Part shown: positions 13,730 through 41,599 of the stretch, in pieces | Numbering within the stretch: the stretch's first letter is position 1 | Layout: each line of letters starts with the position of its first letter | NCBI GenBank assembly: GCA_002838205.1 | Contig: CP017950.1 | Location: forward strand, 1,804,858 to 1,868,857 | Length of the DNA stretch: 64,000 nucleotides | Direction of reading: 5' to 3' | Origin: Tenericutes bacterium MZ-XQ | GTDB taxonomy: Bacteria > Bacillota_I > Bacilli_A > Acholeplasmatales > Acholeplasmataceae | Notes under the pieces: model-generated | The model's database searches: none | Told to the model about the DNA's origin: nothing | What the model saw: only the letters and a program-made list of their open reading frames with translations | Program-made: the position numbers and the translations under genes

Positions 13730-13757
13730 TTGACTTTTTTCAAATTTATAGTATTAT
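13730..13757 (+). promoter_or_regulatory. Promoter of the aspartate/polyamine operon
   Basis: -35 TTGACT (13730-13735), 16-bp spacer, -10 TATTAT (13752-13757). It predicts a start near 13764, just before the leader RNA. Confidence 0.75.
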
Positions 13758-13763
13758 TTTAGT

Positions 13764-13861
13764 GACACACTCATAGAAATATGGGGTCGTCTGAACTATT
13801 AGGGTCTAAAGGATATTATCCAATGACAGCCAGGGTACCTGGTTATCATTGGATTTTTTTT
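13764..13861 (+). promoter_or_regulatory. Unassigned leader RNA with intrinsic terminator (attenuator/riboswitch candidate)
   Basis: Between the promoter and the first gene lies a roughly 55-nt G-rich segment (ATGGGGTCGTCTGAAC, then AGGGTCTAAAGG) directly followed by a full terminator. In the terminator CCAATGA (13820-13826) pairs with TCATTGG (13846-13852), with an inner CCAGG/CCTGG stem and a T8 run. A small hairpin GGATattATCC (13811-13821) shares two bases with the terminator stem, so the two could be alternatives. A terminator placed before the operon means read-through must be controlled. I compared it from memory with purine, lysine, TPP, preQ1, ZTP, fluoride and guanidine-I classes and found no match. 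Confidence 0.7.
13820..13861 (+). terminator. Leader terminator upstream of the polyamine operon
   Basis: Two-part stem (CCAATGA/TCATTGG and CCAGG/CCTGG) followed by eight T, ending about 25 bases before the first start codon. Confidence 0.85.
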
Positions 13862-13886
13862 AAGAAAAAATTAGGAGGAATTAAAC

Positions 13887-15098
13887 ATGTCAAAAGTATT
13901 AGTTATCGGGTGTGGTGCAGTTGCATCTGTTGCCATCCAAAAAGTTGCTCAAAATCATGAAACCTTTAGTGAAATGATTATCGCAAGCCGTACGGTGAGC
14001 AAATGTCAAGCATTCGCAGAAAAATTAAACAGTGATAAGATCAAAGTCACTGCAGAACAACTTGATGCAGATGTAGTTGAAAACATCGTAAAGATCATCG
14101 AGAAACACAATCCAGATGTAGTGCTTAATGTTGCACTTCCTTATCAAAATATTCCAATCATGGAGGCATGCATCCAAACAAAGACACATTATGTAGATAC
14201 AGCATGTGCTGAAGTTAGAGATCACGCAGGTTTCGAATACGGTACACAATGGGTCTATGATCAAAAATTCAAAGAAGCTGGTGTTATGGCACTTTTAGGT
14301 TCAGGGTTTGATCCAGGTGTAACTTCTGTCTTTTCAATGTATGCGAAAAAACATTATTTCGATACCATCGACACCATTGATATCTTAGATGCAAATGGTG
14401 GTGATCATGGATATCCTTTCGCAACCAACTTCAATCCAGAAATCAACATTCGTGAAATCACACTTCCAGGACGTTACTATGAAAACGGGAAATATGTAAC
14501 CATTCCTGCATTATCTAAAAAACATACATATCCACTAGCAGAAATTGGACCTAGAGATATGTATCTCATGTATCATGAAGAAATCGAATCACTTGCTAGA
14601 TTTATTCCAGAAGTTAAACGCATACGTTTCTACATGAGTTTTGGTGAAAGTTATTTAAGACATTTATTCGCACTTAAAAATGTTGGTATGACAAGTGTTG
14701 AACCGATTAAGTTCCAAGGACAAGAAATCGTACCACTACAGTTCTTACGTGCAGTCTTACCAGATCCTGCATCTCTTGGACCAAGAACAGTTGGTAAAAC
14801 CAACATTGGTTGTATCGTATCTGGACATAAAGACGGTGTTAAGAAAAATTATTATGTCTATAATACATGTGATCATCAAGAAGCTTACAAAGAAACTGGT
14901 TCTCAAGCAGTTGCTTATACAACAGGTGTACCAGCAATGATTGGTACTGCATTAATTGCTAAAGGTATATGGAAAGGTGCTGGTGTTTTCAACATGGAAC
15001 AGTTTGACCCAGATCCATTTATGGATATGTTAAACAAATGGGGCTTACCATGGAAAGAAAACTTTGACCCAGTCATGGTCCCAGACGATGCAAATTAA
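13887..15098 (+). CDS. Carboxynorspermidine/carboxyspermidine dehydrogenase (saccharopine dehydrogenase family)
   Basis: 403 aa. The N-terminal Rossmann motif GCGAVASVA is at residues 8-16. Family-typical blocks follow: NVALPYQNIPIMEACI, ALLGSGFDPGVTSVF and NGGDHGYPFATNFNPEIN, which match carboxynorspermidine dehydrogenase rather than true saccharopine dehydrogenase. The enzyme condenses aspartate-semialdehyde with putrescine or 1,3-diaminopropane using NADPH to give carboxyspermidine or carboxynorspermidine. AGGAGG lies eight bases before the ATG. It is first in a four-gene operon, and the gene that makes aspartate-semialdehyde is last, which supports the assignment strongly. Which diamine is used cannot be told. 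Confidence 0.92.
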   Translation: MSKVLVIGCGAVASVAIQKVAQNHETFSEMIIASRTVSKCQAFAEKLNSDKIKVTAEQLDADVVENIVKIIEKHNPDVVLNVALPYQNIPIMEACIQTKTHYVDTACAEVRDHAGFEYGTQWVYDQKFKEAGVMALLGSGFDPGVTSVFSMYAKKHYFDTIDTIDILDANGGDHGYPFATNFNPEINIREITLPGRYYENGKYVTIPALSKKHTYPLAEIGPRDMYLMYHEEIESLARFIPEVKRIRFYMSFGESYLRHLFALKNVGMTSVEPIKFQGQEIVPLQFLRAVLPDPASLGPRTVGKTNIGCIVSGHKDGVKKNYYVYNTCDHQEAYKETGSQAVAYTTGVPAMIGTALIAKGIWKGAGVFNMEQFDPDPFMDMLNKWGLPWKENFDPVMVPDDAN

Positions 15099-16215
15099 TA
15101 AAAACCTAAAAACACCATATTACTTACTTGATGAAGCAAAGCTTATCAAAAACTTAGAAATTATCAAAACGATTAAAGAACGCTCAGGTGCAAAAGTTTT
15201 GCTTGCACAAAAAGCATTTTCTAACTTCTACTTCTACCCCTTAATGTCAAAATATCTAGATGGGACAACAGCAAGTGGTCTTTATGAAGCAAGATTAGGT
15301 TATGAACATTTCAAAGGTGAAGTTCATGTATATGCACCTGCATATAAAGATGATGATTTTAAAGAGATCTTACGCTATGCAGATCACATCGTCTTTAACT
15401 CAATCACACAATTAAACCGTTATAAAGATTTATCTAAGGCTCATGGTAAAACCATAGGCCTTAGAATCAATCCAGAAATTTCAACACAAGACTCAGCACA
15501 TGAAATGTATGACCCATCATCTCCAACGTCTCGTATGGGCACACGCTTGGTTGATTTTGATCCTGAAATCATCAAAGATATCTCAGGTCTACATTTTCAT
15601 ACCCTTTGTCAACAAAACGCAGATGCACTTGAAATTACCTTAAAGGTTGTTGAAGAAAAGTTTGGCAAATACTTACATGACTTAAAATGGATTAACTTCG
15701 GTGGCGGACATCATTTAACTAGAGATGATTATGATATCGATCTATTAGTCAAACTCATCAAACATTTTAAAGAGACTTACAATTTAGAAGTCTATTTAGA
15801 ACCAGGTGAAGGTGTTGTTTTAAATGCAGGATATTTTGTTGCTCAAGTCTTAGATATCGTTAAAAACGACATGCCAATCGCGATCCTAGATACATCTGCA
15901 ACATGTCACATGCCAGATGTCCTTGAAATGCCATTTATGCCGCCTGTAACAAGCGCAATCAAAAAAAGCCAATACCAATACCGTCTATCAGGATACACCT
16001 GTCTAACGGGCGATAATATCGGTGAATATTACTTCGAAAAACCATTATCTATTGGAGACCATATCATCTTTGAAGATATGGCATTATACACCATGGTTAA
16101 AAACACAACATTTAACGGGATTCCACTCCCATGGATTTACGTAAGAAAAACTGATGGCACAGATGAATTAATTAAATCATTTGGGTATTTAGATTTCAAA
16201 AACAAACTGTCTTGA
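15088..16215 (+). CDS. nspC: Carboxynorspermidine/carboxyspermidine decarboxylase
   Basis: 375 aa from the ATG at 15088, overlapping the previous gene by 11 bases; a TTG at 15064 is an alternative start. It is a PLP-dependent fold-III (alanine-racemase-like) decarboxylase. The Schiff-base lysine is expected in LLAQKAFSNF near residue 38. The motifs LHFHTLCQQ, GGGHHLTRDDYD, LEPGEGVV and FEDMALYTMVKNTTFNGIPLP are typical of NspC. It removes CO2 from carboxy(nor)spermidine to give spermidine or norspermidine. Overlap with the dehydrogenase implies coupled translation. Confidence 0.93.
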   Translation: MQINKNLKTPYYLLDEAKLIKNLEIIKTIKERSGAKVLLAQKAFSNFYFYPLMSKYLDGTTASGLYEARLGYEHFKGEVHVYAPAYKDDDFKEILRYADHIVFNSITQLNRYKDLSKAHGKTIGLRINPEISTQDSAHEMYDPSSPTSRMGTRLVDFDPEIIKDISGLHFHTLCQQNADALEITLKVVEEKFGKYLHDLKWINFGGGHHLTRDDYDIDLLVKLIKHFKETYNLEVYLEPGEGVVLNAGYFVAQVLDIVKNDMPIAILDTSATCHMPDVLEMPFMPPVTSAIKKSQYQYRLSGYTCLTGDNIGEYYFEKPLSIGDHIIFEDMALYTMVKNTTFNGIPLPWIYVRKTDGTDELIKSFGYLDFKNKLS

Positions 16216-16223
16216 GGTGAATC

Positions 16224-17549
16224 ATGAAAAAATATAAAGTAGCAAAATTTGGTGGCACCTCGCTAGCAACTCCAGAAGCTTTAAAAGAGGTCATATCCAT
16301 TATCCAGTCTGATGAAGAAAGAAAATACATTGTCGTATCTGCACCAGGCAAAAGATTTAAAGAAGATATCAAGGTTACAGATCTTTTGTATCAGCTTGCT
16401 GATGAAATCATCATCGGTCAAAAAGTTGATACATATGAACTGATCAAACAAAGATACTTATCTTTAACAAAAGATTTTAAACTCTCATTCTCATTAGAGG
16501 ATCTCCTTGATCATATTTTAGCTGAAATGATTGAAGAAGAAACTGTTGAGTTTATAGTCTCAAGAGGTGAATATATCACTGCAATTATTCTTGCAGATCT
16601 TTTAGGTTTCACATTTGTAGATGCAAAAGAACTTGTTAGATTTAGGGGATCAAAAGTTGATTATACCCAAACACAGAAAATCGCAAGAAAATATTTAAGA
16701 GATAAAGAAAACGTCGTCATTCCTGGCTTTTATGGATCAACTCTTAAAGGCGATTTGAAGCTCTTATCTAGAGGTGGCGCAGATGTCACTGGTGCATTAA
16801 TATCTGCAGCTGTTCATGCGAAGATGTATGAAAACTGGACAGATCAAGATGGCTTTTTAATGTGTGATCCACGCATCGTTGAAGAACCACATCTCATTGA
16901 TGTCATGTCTTATAAAGAACTTAGAGCTCTATCTTTTATGGGTGCTTCTGTCATCCACAGTGATACATTCTATCCTGTGGCTAAAGCAGGCATTCCCATT
17001 AACGCAAGAAATACTTTTAACAGAGAAGCTAAAGGTACATTCATCTATGATTATGTACCTGCAAGCAAAGGTAGACATGTGGTTACTGGTATTGCAGGTT
17101 TAAATGATTTTACTTTAGTAGTCATTGAAAAACATTTAATGGATGAGACCAGCGGTTTTGACAGAAAAGTACTTCTCATTTGTGAAAAATTTGATATTCA
17201 AGTTGAACATTTTCCTAGTGGTACAGATACATTTTCATTAATGATTGAATCTAAATATCTAAAAGATGGAAAACTTGATTTATTAATTGCTCAAATCAAA
17301 AAACTATTAAAGCCTGATACTGTTGAAGTTCATGAAAATATCTCATTAATCTCAATCGTTGGTAGAAACTTAATGGCTAATAAGTATAACATGTTAAAAC
17401 TATTTAGTGCGCTTGTTAATACAAACATTACACTGCGTATGATTGATTATGGTTCAAATGGAACTAATATCGTCATCGGTGTTGATGACATCGATTACGA
17501 ATACGCAATCAACGCGGTTTATAATGAATTTGAAAGAGATGATGAATAA
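16224..17549 (+). CDS. lysC: Aspartate kinase
   Basis: 441 aa. The catalytic amino-acid kinase domain begins with KFGGTSLA at residues 8-15 and has SRGGADVTGAL near residue 188. Two ACT domains (residues about 300-440) close the protein, the second with VGRNLMANKYNM. It phosphorylates aspartate to aspartyl-phosphate. GAGGTG lies six bases before the ATG; the gap to the decarboxylase is 8 bases. No lysine, threonine or methionine genes are nearby, so the product is probably aimed at polyamine synthesis. ACT domains suggest feedback control, but by which ligand is unknown. Confidence 0.95.
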   Translation: MKKYKVAKFGGTSLATPEALKEVISIIQSDEERKYIVVSAPGKRFKEDIKVTDLLYQLADEIIIGQKVDTYELIKQRYLSLTKDFKLSFSLEDLLDHILAEMIEEETVEFIVSRGEYITAIILADLLGFTFVDAKELVRFRGSKVDYTQTQKIARKYLRDKENVVIPGFYGSTLKGDLKLLSRGGADVTGALISAAVHAKMYENWTDQDGFLMCDPRIVEEPHLIDVMSYKELRALSFMGASVIHSDTFYPVAKAGIPINARNTFNREAKGTFIYDYVPASKGRHVVTGIAGLNDFTLVVIEKHLMDETSGFDRKVLLICEKFDIQVEHFPSGTDTFSLMIESKYLKDGKLDLLIAQIKKLLKPDTVEVHENISLISIVGRNLMANKYNMLKLFSALVNTNITLRMIDYGSNGTNIVIGVDDIDYEYAINAVYNEFERDDE

Positions 17550-17550
17550 C

Positions 17551-18537
17551 ATGAAAAAGATAAATCTCGCTATTGTTGGCGCAACCGGTGTGGTTGGTCG
17601 TAAGTTTTTAGAAGTCATCGACGAAAGGAAAATTCCGTTTGAAAATCTATATCTGTTCGCATCTAAAAAAAGTGCTGGCAAAGACATAAGTTTCCAAGGA
17701 AAAACATATACAGTTATTGAACTTAACGAAGAAAACATAAAAAAACATGACATTGATTTTGCACTCTTTAGTGCTGGTGGTTCTACTGCCCTTACTTACG
17801 CACCAATCTTTGCAAAACAAAAAACAATTGTCATTGATAACTCGAGTGCATTTAGAATGGATAAGAATGTCCCATTAGTTGTTCCTGAAGTAAATAAGGA
17901 TGCTGCGTTTAAACATAGCTATATCATCGCAAATCCAAACTGTTCAACCATTCAAGCAGCATTAGTTTTAAAACCACTTCATGATCAATACAATCTCAAA
18001 AGAGTTGTCATGTCTACTTACCAAGCAGTAAGTGGCGCTGGTATTGATGGAATCCATGACTTAGAAAACGAACTTAAAACCGGAGAAACTAAAAAATTCC
18101 CATATCAAATTTATCATAATGTCATTCCTCAAATTGACATCTTCCTAGAAGATGGCAATACCAAAGAAGAAGAAAAAATGATGAATGAAATGAGAAAGAT
18201 ATTGAATCTTCCAGACTTAAAAATAACAGCTACTGCTGTTAGAGTACCTGTTGTTCATGGGCATAGCGAAAGTATCAACATTGAGTTTAACCAAGATTTT
18301 GATATCAATCATGTTAAATCCATCTTAAAACAAGCACCTCATGTTGTCGTCTATGATGATCCAAGTGAACTCAAATACCCGATGCCTATTTTAGCAGAAG
18401 GCAAAGATGAAGTATTTGTGGGAAGAATTAGACGTGATCAATCTTTAGATTACGGAATGAACTGCTTTGTTGTTGCTGATAACATTAGAAAAGGTGCAGC
18501 AACCAATGCAGTACAAATCTTAGAGTTATTTTTATAA
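17551..18537 (+). CDS. asd: Aspartate-semialdehyde dehydrogenase
   Basis: 328 aa from the ATG at 17551; in-frame ATGs at 17539 and 17542 overlap the kinase gene and cannot be excluded. GATGVVG near the start binds NADP(H). The catalytic cysteine sits in NPNCSTIQ near residue 128, with the active-site His in VVHGHSESINIEF. It reduces aspartyl-phosphate to aspartate-semialdehyde, the co-substrate of the first gene in this operon. The gene ends the operon and is followed by a strong terminator. Confidence 0.95.
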   Translation: MKKINLAIVGATGVVGRKFLEVIDERKIPFENLYLFASKKSAGKDISFQGKTYTVIELNEENIKKHDIDFALFSAGGSTALTYAPIFAKQKTIVIDNSSAFRMDKNVPLVVPEVNKDAAFKHSYIIANPNCSTIQAALVLKPLHDQYNLKRVVMSTYQAVSGAGIDGIHDLENELKTGETKKFPYQIYHNVIPQIDIFLEDGNTKEEEKMMNEMRKILNLPDLKITATAVRVPVVHGHSESINIEFNQDFDINHVKSILKQAPHVVVYDDPSELKYPMPILAEGKDEVFVGRIRRDQSLDYGMNCFVVADNIRKGAATNAVQILELFL

Positions 18538-25288: not shown

Positions 25289-26773
25289 TTAAGATCTATC
25301 TTTTCTTTGTTTTTTCATCTCATAAAGGGCATCATCAGCAAGCCTTAGAACTTTAGCGATTGTTTGTTCATCTGCGTTTAGATGTGCACCATATGAATAG
25401 CCCATACAATGATTGTTGTTTTGTTCTTTTATGAAAGTGTTAATATCTTCAATAATTTTATTTTTATCAAACATGATCTGATTTTCGACGATGAGTAAAA
25501 ACTCATCCCCACCAAGTCTTATCGCGGTTGCTTTTTGAAGTGTTTTAGCCACTTCTTTCAAACTGTTCGCGAAGCAAATCAACAACTGATCTCCTGCTTC
25601 ATGTCCATGTGAATCATTTGTTCTTTTAAGTCCATCCAGATCAAATATGATAACACCGTAAGGTTCTTTTGAGTTATTCAATATTTCTTTGTAATCTTCA
25701 AAAAAATTTCTATTATACAAATCTGTCATTAAATCATGATAATAAACATCATTCAACTCATTCAATAAGTGTTGATGCTCAGTTTCATCATAATACAAGA
25801 ACAATTTTCCTGAATACTTGAAAAGCGGTAAGTTGATTCTTTCTTCTTTCATGTGTAGATAGATTTTATCCTTTTGAAAGGTTTGATCAACTTTTATCGA
25901 GTCTGAATAGATAATCGCTTTTTGATGCATCATCTGTGTAATCTCATCAAATGAAATGTTGCTCAAATCGCCTAAATCAAACTTTGTCTTCAACTCATCA
26001 GAGGCATTAACAACCATACCATTAATATCAACGATTAAATACATTTCCCGATAATGATCTAAAATAAACTGATTATTATTGAGTTGAGATATCAAATTTA
26101 AGTCTCTAATGATAGATATAATAGAGAGTGACCCCATAAACATAACAAAAATGATTAATGTCGGATCAATGTTGAACTCATATACAAACAAATGAATTAA
26201 ATTAACTGCTAAACCAGAAATAAAGCACAGTGAAATTAGCAACAACGGTACAAAGTCTCTACTGTTTCTAAACTGATTCAAAAAGTATCTTGATAACTTG
26301 AAAAAAACATATGCAAGCAAAATATAAGATATGATGGTATGTATAAAGAAACCAAATCCAACATCTGCGTCATTAAACATCCTTAATGTGACGTTTTGGT
26401 CATAACTTAGTTTTATAATCAATTGATGTGTTGTATTTGTCAAAACAGTAACAGCATTAATAACCCACATGATTAGCAAACTAGTTTTTAGCCAAATTCC
26501 ATTCTTAATAACTAGATAATCTCGTATTGCTAAAACGAGTAAAATGACCAATCCAAAAACAATAGGATATATACTTAGTGAAGCATAATATGTAAATATA
26601 TTATTGGATACTACGAATCTTAATCCAATCATAAGTGTCCATAATAATAGTCCAATATTGATATAAAGGAATTTACGATACTTTTTAAATTTGAAATATA
26701 AATCTACTCTTAAAAATAAAAACATGACAAAAATAATCAAGATAGCATATATAAACCAAATGTAATCCTTCAT
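25289..26773 (-). CDS. Membrane-bound diguanylate cyclase (7TM-PAS-GGDEF)
   Basis: 494 aa from the ATG at 26773, set by GGGAGG eight bases upstream. About seven membrane segments (residues 1-225) resemble the 7TM sensor region found in front of histidine kinases. A PAS-like region follows (MYLIVDINGMVVNAS near residue 245), and a C-terminal GGDEF domain has an intact RLGGDEF active site near residue 432. It should make cyclic di-GMP from two GTP. No RxxD inhibitory site is obvious five residues before the GGDEF motif. Monocistronic. Confidence 0.9.
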   Translation of the reverse strand: MKDYIWFIYAILIIFVMFLFLRVDLYFKFKKYRKFLYINIGLLLWTLMIGLRFVVSNNIFTYYASLSIYPIVFGLVILLVLAIRDYLVIKNGIWLKTSLLIMWVINAVTVLTNTTHQLIIKLSYDQNVTLRMFNDADVGFGFFIHTIISYILLAYVFFKLSRYFLNQFRNSRDFVPLLLISLCFISGLAVNLIHLFVYEFNIDPTLIIFVMFMGSLSIISIIRDLNLISQLNNNQFILDHYREMYLIVDINGMVVNASDELKTKFDLGDLSNISFDEITQMMHQKAIIYSDSIKVDQTFQKDKIYLHMKEERINLPLFKYSGKLFLYYDETEHQHLLNELNDVYYHDLMTDLYNRNFFEDYKEILNNSKEPYGVIIFDLDGLKRTNDSHGHEAGDQLLICFANSLKEVAKTLQKATAIRLGGDEFLLIVENQIMFDKNKIIEDINTFIKEQNNNHCMGYSYGAHLNADEQTIAKVLRLADDALYEMKKQRKDRS

Positions 26774-39145: not shown

Positions 39146-41599
39146 ATGAAAATTTTTGCGCATCGCCAATTCTATATATCTATGCTGTTTCTTGTTCTAT
39201 CAGCGCTATTGTTTTTTGCAATCTACTTTTTTGCAGCTCATACAATAAGAAATAGACAAGAAGCTTTATTGTCACTTGAAATGAATGCTGTGTCTGCGGA
39301 TGTTCATCATTTTTATGATGATTTTTTCATTACGCTTGAGGGAGTTTCTAGTTATATTAAAATCTATGGCACTGATGAATTACTTCATTTTATGGTTGAA
39401 ATAGATGAAGATAATCCTTGGATAGAATCCATGTATTTTGGTAATCCAGATAATCAAATGATTAATTCAAGTGGCTTTGTTCCAGGACCTGGATTTGATT
39501 TGAGAACTAGACCATGGTATCAATCAGTACTAAGTGAAGACCAAACTATTGTAACACCAGTGTTCTTAAATGCAACAGAGGATAAGTTGATTACAACAGT
39601 TGCAACTCCTGTTTATGATCAAACAGATAATTTTGTTGGTGTTTTAGCAGTTGATATTGATATAGAATCTATAAAGCTTTATTTCGAAAATAAGACGGTT
39701 GGAGACACAGGATTTGCGTTAATTATTGATGGAAACGATCATGTTGTTGCCCACCCAGAACTTGATATGTTTTCAAATGAACTCATCGATTTAGATACAT
39801 TAGGCATTTCATTTGATGGGTTAAATGAATTTTCAGTACATGAGAAAATACAACTAGGCAGTTTTTCTGGTTCTGCATTATGGTCTCGAGTATTAGGAAA
39901 TGACTATAAACTCTTAATTTTCATGCCTGAGAAAGAATACTATGACACCCTTAACCAATTTATGAATTATTTCATAGTTGTTTACAGTATGGTTGTTTTA
40001 ATGACTTTAACATATTTATGGATGAATTTTAATAAGATTTTTAAACCAATCAATCATCTTGTGGATGATCTATCTCAAATTAATGTGAAAGATAACATCG
40101 GATATCGATTGGCAATGGATAATAATGATGTATTAGATGAGATAAGAGACACAGTAAATAAGGCACTTCAGAGTTCTGAAGAGTATTTTGATGAAGCTAA
40201 ATTAAAGGCAGACCAACTTTTTTTGGAGAACCAACGATTTAAACATCTAATAAATTCGACACAGGACTTTATTATTCATTTAAATACAAATGGTTTTATC
40301 GTATACGCTTCAGGGTCTGGTCTTGAGAAGATTGATGTGAAATCAGAAGATCTTATAAATAAACATGTTGAATCATTTAATCACGAGTTGTTTAGGTACC
40401 AAGAAACGAAAGATCATTTTATGTTTGATTGGAAATATAAGAAATACTTTTTTGAAACATCAATTTCACCAATCTATGATCAAAATCATAACATCATAGG
40501 ATCTGTGTTGATATCAAGAGATATCACTGACTATAAGAAACGTCAAGCTGAAATTGATTACATTAATCAACATGACTTTTTGACGGATCTTTATAATAGA
40601 AGAATGTTTATTGAAAAATTTAATGAGTTAAACGAACAAAAAGCATTTCCGATTACTGTAATGATGATGGATTTAAATGGGTTGAAGATGCTTAATGATG
40701 CATTTGGTCATCAAGTTGGTGATGAGGCACTTGTTGAAGTATCAAATGCATTTAGAAAAGTTTTTAAAGATCACTTTTCAGCAAGAATTGGTGGAGATGA
40801 GTTTGCTGTAATTTTGACAGGGCTTGAGAAACATGAAATAGAATATATAAAGCACAATTTTAGAAAAGTCGTTAGTGCGATTATAATCAGTGATATCTCA
40901 TTGTCAATTTCAGTAGGATACCACATGGTATATGAAGAATGTCGCAATATAAATGATGTTTTAAAAGAAGCTGAAAACAATATGTATAGACATAAAGTTA
41001 TTGAAAGTATGAGTGTTAGAAACCAGGCGATTAGAGCAATTCATAAGACGCTTACTGATAAATATAAAGAAGAGCGCATTCATTCAGAAAAGGTTAGTAT
41101 GATTTGTTATGTCATGGGATTAGCAATGGGTATAAAAGATGAGCAGTTAGAAGAACTAAAAATGGCTGGTTTATATCATGATATTGGTAAGATTGCCATA
41201 CCTGATGCCATCCTTGATAAGCCAGGACCGCTAACTAATGACGAGTTTGAACTCATGAAAACACATACTGAAATCGGTTATCAGATCTTAAGAGCTGCAG
41301 ATGATTATTCTAGACTCGCAGAGTATGCTTTATCTCATCATGAAAGATGGGATGGAAAAGGTTATCCTAGAGGTATAGAAAAAGAAGATATCCCTTTATT
41401 TGCGAGAATAATATCACTTGCCGATTCATATGATGCAATGACAACGAATCGGGTTTATCGCTCGAAAATGACAAAAGATCAAGCGATCCAACAACTTATC
41501 AAAGGTTCTGGAAAACAATATGATCCAAAGCTTACAAAACTATTCATAAAAGAAGTATTGAAAAGACCAAAAGAAACAGAAAAGGTTGAGATATTTTAA
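39146..41599 (+). CDS. dCache-PAS-GGDEF-HD-GYP cyclic di-GMP protein
   Basis: 817 aa. An extracellular dCache-type sensor (residues about 35-270, with the RTRPWYQSV hallmark near residue 120) lies between two membrane helices. A PAS domain (about 365-470), a GGDEF domain with intact IGGDEF near residue 550, and an HD-GYP domain follow. The HD-GYP domain has YHDIGKIAIPDAIL near residue 677, HHERWDGKGYPRG and the metal-binding HD and GYP residues. It may both make and break cyclic di-GMP. AAGGTG precedes the ATG. Monocistronic. Sensed ligand unknown. Confidence 0.92.
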   Translation: MKIFAHRQFYISMLFLVLSALLFFAIYFFAAHTIRNRQEALLSLEMNAVSADVHHFYDDFFITLEGVSSYIKIYGTDELLHFMVEIDEDNPWIESMYFGNPDNQMINSSGFVPGPGFDLRTRPWYQSVLSEDQTIVTPVFLNATEDKLITTVATPVYDQTDNFVGVLAVDIDIESIKLYFENKTVGDTGFALIIDGNDHVVAHPELDMFSNELIDLDTLGISFDGLNEFSVHEKIQLGSFSGSALWSRVLGNDYKLLIFMPEKEYYDTLNQFMNYFIVVYSMVVLMTLTYLWMNFNKIFKPINHLVDDLSQINVKDNIGYRLAMDNNDVLDEIRDTVNKALQSSEEYFDEAKLKADQLFLENQRFKHLINSTQDFIIHLNTNGFIVYASGSGLEKIDVKSEDLINKHVESFNHELFRYQETKDHFMFDWKYKKYFFETSISPIYDQNHNIIGSVLISRDITDYKKRQAEIDYINQHDFLTDLYNRRMFIEKFNELNEQKAFPITVMMMDLNGLKMLNDAFGHQVGDEALVEVSNAFRKVFKDHFSARIGGDEFAVILTGLEKHEIEYIKHNFRKVVSAIIISDISLSISVGYHMVYEECRNINDVLKEAENNMYRHKVIESMSVRNQAIRAIHKTLTDKYKEERIHSEKVSMICYVMGLAMGIKDEQLEELKMAGLYHDIGKIAIPDAILDKPGPLTNDEFELMKTHTEIGYQILRAADDYSRLAEYALSHHERWDGKGYPRGIEKEDIPLFARIISLADSYDAMTTNRVYRSKMTKDQAIQQLIKGSGKQYDPKLTKLFIKEVLKRPKETEKVEIF

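Follow-up and report, generated by a model that had tools for sequence, protein, structure and literature searches.

A GEMM-I-derived leader with a rebuilt ligand site, probably a transcriptional riboswitch, upstream of a carboxynorspermidine synthesis operon in Acholeplasmatales-type bacteria

The operon that opens with a carboxynorspermidine synthase-type gene (CANSDH) in Tenericutes bacterium MZ-XQ is preceded by a conserved leader which, judged from its sequence and with a probability of about 0.65, is a transcriptional riboswitch derived from the c-di-GMP-I (GEMM-I) aptamer. Its ligand site has been rebuilt and would recognize either c-di-GMP in an altered mode or another ligand. In the 64,000-nt stretch of DNA analysed (the window), a promoter, a GAAA-capped hairpin, G-rich segments, a terminator, the ribosome-binding site AGGAGG and an ATG at 13887 can be read from the sequence at 13730-13889 (Table 1), and the original prediction of a good promoter, a G-rich segment, a small hairpin and a full intrinsic terminator before the first gene was accurate in each of these elements. 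Its reading of the arrangement as that of a transcription-attenuating riboswitch is supported by conservation and by the mutual exclusion of aptamer and terminator; its estimate of an aptamer of ~55 nt was an artefact of cutting the RNA at the terminator, as the conserved core measures ~73 nt.

Table 1. Coordinates, within the window, of the leader elements and of the operon genes.
Feature	Positions	Strand	Remarks
Promoter	13730-13757	+	-35 TTGACT 13730-13735, 16-nt spacer, -10 TATTAT 13752-13757
Aptamer core, GEMM-I-derived variant	13764-13836	+	RF01051, model R1, conservation; 13764 = G20 (Vc2 numbering)
P2 with GAAA tetraloop	13764-13791	+	A21-U46 (13765/13790), C22-G45, possible G20-C47 (13764/13791)
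Rebuilt junction J2-3	13791-13793	+	CUG here, UUG in five relatives; replaces A47-A48
P3	13795-13836	+	receptor side C59 = 13806, G79 = 13825; G83 = 13829
Intrinsic terminator	13818-13861	+	hairpin 13818-13854, eight-T run 13854-13861; 5' arm = P3 3' strand
Ribosome-binding site AGGAGG	13873-13878	+	sequence
Carboxynorspermidine synthase-type gene (CANSDH; saccharopine dehydrogenase fold)	13887-15098	+	NF043000, PF16653/PF03435
Carboxynorspermidine decarboxylase nspC	15088-16215	+	TIGR01047, 474 bits, above cut-off
Aspartate kinase	16224-17549	+	NF006540, 438 bits, above cut-off
Aspartate-semialdehyde dehydrogenase (asd)	17551-18537	+	NF011456, 439 bits, above cut-off

The family assignment comes from a search of Rfam, in which the c-di-GMP-I (GEMM-I) model RF01051 matched 13754-13842 at 37.1 bits, only just over its gathering score of 35. 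Two of the relatives also exceed that score (35.3 and 35.4 bits), and the three others tested lie below it. The relation is reciprocal, since RF01051 finds the variant and a covariance model made solely from orthologous variant leaders (model R1), which gives 104.1 bits at 13763-13837, finds RF01051 copies in turn: its six best other matches in a sample of 392 genomes of the phylum are all RF01051 RNAs, scored at 65-73 bits by RF01051 itself. No SAM family matched the leader, even with the threshold relaxed to E<=10, and the four-stem aptamer of SAM-I is absent from it. The description of the leader as unassigned, which the original prediction had undertaken to give up upon a significant Rfam match, can accordingly be dropped. 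The related statement that no known class fits is incorrect at the level of the family, and holds in part at the level of the ligand site, where the c-di-GMP contacts A47 and A48 have been replaced.

The scaffold of the parent aptamer is intact in all seven leaders that we identified (residue numbering and the list of scaffold and docking residues follow PMC3764141). G20, C22, A23, A25, the GAAA loop, G42, C44, G45, A49, C59, G79 and G83 are kept throughout, and these are the residues published as building P2 and P3 and docking them side by side (PMC3764141); the GAAA tetraloop, the C44-G83 docking pair and the C59/G79 receptor are thus invariant, and the variant also shares with RF01051 its place before an intrinsic terminator. 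Unlike RF01051, every variant has (C/U)UG, with one base inserted, in place of A47-A48, a compensated pair A21-U46 in place of G21-C46, C24 with U43 in place of A24 with A43, a lengthened base of P3 (AACUAUUAGG/CCAGRGU), and a G20 that can pair with the new pyrimidine at 47 (GU in five leaders, GC in two). By comparison, AAA stands at positions 47-49 in 44/44 intact ordinary G20 copies readable in the loci examined. It is because A47 and A48 were looked for and found replaced that we do not file the leader as a c-di-GMP sensor, although altered pocket residues alone do not prove a new ligand. At position 92 (J3-1) the variants have C, U or A and the ordinary copies of the order C or U, so that this position is uninformative here.

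A further difference from the parent family concerns the closing helix P1, which is missing from all seven leaders when each is read from its predicted 5' end. The -35 and -10 boxes are separated by 16 nt at all seven loci, and in every case 6 nt lie between the end of the -10 box and the equivalent of G20, so that transcription is expected to start at or within ~3 nt of 13764, that is, at about G20. P1 could not form on such a transcript, as its 5' strand would lie in untranscribed DNA. The leader folds better than 200/200 dinucleotide shuffles of itself (z = -3.94). A leader peptide was considered and rejected, the only frame being one of four codons that starts with GTG and has no ribosome site.

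Conservation is concentrated in the aptamer core, where the seven loci are on average 91% identical over ~73 nt. Identity is 42% upstream, 44% in the stretch from the terminator to the ATG and 51.5% over the third codon positions of CANSDH, and it follows that the leader is not a product of chance. The proposed structure is satisfied by 99.3% of the cells of the alignment, as against 33-48% when it is slid along the sequences (in this alignment the base inserted in J2-3 and that in P3 could sit slightly differently). Covariation is limited in these seven sequences, with one pair that changes on both sides and eight further pair types, because the sequences are close to one another.

The direction of the switch is suggested by the overlap between aptamer and terminator. 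The last 18 nt of the core fall inside the 5' arm of the terminator, and in each of the seven leaders 12-16 nt of this 18-nt 3' strand of P3 are captured by the terminator, while the downstream arms differ in sequence; because the strand is shared, aptamer and terminator are mutually exclusive, which is the layout of an ON switch. In the mechanism that we propose, the P2/P3 scaffold would fold first, and a ligand presumed to bind the rebuilt site would stabilize it, keep the P3 3' strand paired and let RNA polymerase read into the operon; when no ligand is bound, the same strand would pair with the downstream RNA and form the terminator. The ligand would in this way turn the operon from CANSDH to asd ON, and with such a layout simple feedback by a polyamine end product becomes less likely. 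The pilM riboswitch for c-AMP-GMP (GEMM-Ib), also an ON switch, has the same mutual exclusion of aptamer and terminator (PMC9262584).

The genes downstream are read, from their family matches, as the aspartate-semialdehyde route to spermidine and norspermidine together with its own precursor supply; the first of them matches NF043000 at an E value of 7e-122 but stays under the strict cut-off of that model. The leader occurs in seven related Acholeplasmatales-type genomes, namely MZ-XQ and six further carriers (MO-XQ, L060/G023; L059/G035; L056/G027; L063/G152; L062/G028; and L058), in each of which it stands immediately upstream of CANSDH and nowhere else; the leader is thus conserved before orthologous operons. 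CANSDH is followed by nspC and aspartate kinase at all seven loci, and asd comes next in the six whose sequence covers it (L058 left out). Searches of 160 genomes of the order, 392 of the phylum and 395 of the class (overlapping samples) returned no further copies, the variant leader was not found among the plasmids and phages searched, and the leader is also missing from close congeneric genomes without a CANSDH gene. The cassette of leader and operon is present in two families of the order, with a patchy distribution inside each, a pattern suggestive of the two moving as a unit. One genome (G153, L012:1240-1500) carries CANSDH and nspC in a closely similar operon (81% and 78% identical) with an unrelated upstream region that gives no match to the variant model. 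An exact-pattern search of genome and viral contigs recovered six real leaders in the genome contigs; its three other matches there and all viral ones were set aside as chance. Nine extra matches to a looser pattern (two mismatches) in the 160 genomes were rejected, all of them being in coding-type sequence that lacks the fold.

The ordinary form of the aptamer also occurs in the same organisms. MZ-XQ has five clearly ordinary c-di-GMP-I copies (56-65 bits), and such copies were also found in all six of the variant carriers searched. Three of those in MZ-XQ (L001, L003 and L004) stand in tandem at genome positions 622183-622506 before genes for secreted, surface-type proteins, and another, at 613598-613673, adjoins genes for a signal peptidase and for similar surface-type proteins. 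The genome encodes 17 GGDEF domains, and of the five with a readable signature four have the usual GH-x-x-GD; two of the 17 lie inside the window, at 25298-25741 (-) and 40568-40996 (+). In other Bacilli, two c-di-GMP-I riboswitches (L071:1492-1576 and L076:1492-1577) have position 20 changed to A, as is associated with the sensing of c-AMP-GMP.

As to the ligand, we slightly prefer a changed recognition over plain c-di-GMP sensing. That the GEMM-I scaffold has been repurposed to sense a compound other than c-di-GMP, and to switch on the synthesis of spermidine or norspermidine, is somewhat less likely than not. It is also possible, if somewhat doubtful, that the leader still works as an ordinary c-di-GMP-I riboswitch in spite of a degenerate pocket, so that high c-di-GMP would turn polyamine synthesis ON: the RF01051 match is over its cut-off, G20 is retained, U at position 92 is found in ordinary copies of the order too, the genome is rich in GGDEF domains with mostly usual readable signatures, and c-di-GMP control of a sessile programme would fit the ordinary copies before surface-type proteins and near the signal peptidase. 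Nor is the loss of P1 fatal, since Cd1 of C. difficile, a c-di-GMP-I riboswitch that likewise has no P1, binds c-di-GMP at 0.25 uM; Cd1 differs from the variant in working as an OFF switch and in the C that it carries at the ligand-pairing 3' position (PMC9262584). Against such a pocket stands the replacement in all seven leaders of A47 and A48, key recognition residues (A47 stacks with the bases of c-di-GMP) that none of the 44 intact local G20 copies has lost; the possible G20-Y47 pair would moreover occupy G20, and the altered site is invariant across genera, unlike a site in decay.

A repurposed scaffold would have precedents in rare variants of common aptamers which are tied to particular genes and have proved to sense new ligands, as in the passage from SAM-I to spermidine (PMC10853860); the only natural change of GEMM-I specificity that we found described is that to c-AMP-GMP (PMC7266159), and the present variant is not described in the open-access papers found. 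A ligand from the polyamine pathway itself (spermidine, norspermidine, diaminopropane, carboxynorspermidine, aspartate semialdehyde or lysine) would suit the fact that 7/7 copies precede this operon only, and the spermidine riboswitch is, like the variant, a rare form of a widespread aptamer before polyamine genes (PMC10853860). We nonetheless consider such a ligand unlikely, because no feature of the pocket points to it, and because the spermidine riboswitch has another parent fold and is an OFF switch whereas the layout here is of the ON type, in which feedback by an end product would act the wrong way and a precursor would be needed. It is less probable still that the leader is no small-molecule switch at all, being instead a fixed partial attenuator or a protein-bound RNA; the terminator is strong, but a core of 73 nt that is homologous to a ligand-binding aptamer and keeps certain unpaired bases conserved exceeds what a terminator needs.

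In GEMM-I the change of specificity to c-AMP-GMP is associated with that of G20 to A. A c-AMP-GMP (GEMM-Ib) riboswitch, such as known rare GEMM-I variants are (PMC7266159), is very improbable here and was rejected, since the pilM class is associated with A20 and all seven variants keep G20, and since the readable GGDEF signatures (5 of 17) look like those of diguanylate cyclases.

The variant combines a rebuilt pocket with a known parent and one target operon, and the ordinary copies in its own genome can serve as controls, so that the way in which an aptamer changes its ligand is open to direct test. Polyamines could turn out to be controlled by a second RNA route, or c-di-GMP to be linked directly to their synthesis.

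Leaders of other kinds were also sought before CANSDH genes elsewhere. In other Bacilli no Rfam leader was found upstream of the gene. In another family of the order, a different and longer conserved leader precedes it (L015:1200-1500, L016:1200-1500, L022:780-1180 and L025:780-1180; also L024), for which the Rfam search gave no convincing match; it carries the motif GCCACTTGTGAAACGGTCAATAAGAGTAGTAAAAGTA..TTTACTRTATAGACTCT followed by a terminator-like hairpin, and is possibly a further candidate leader RNA for CANSDH.
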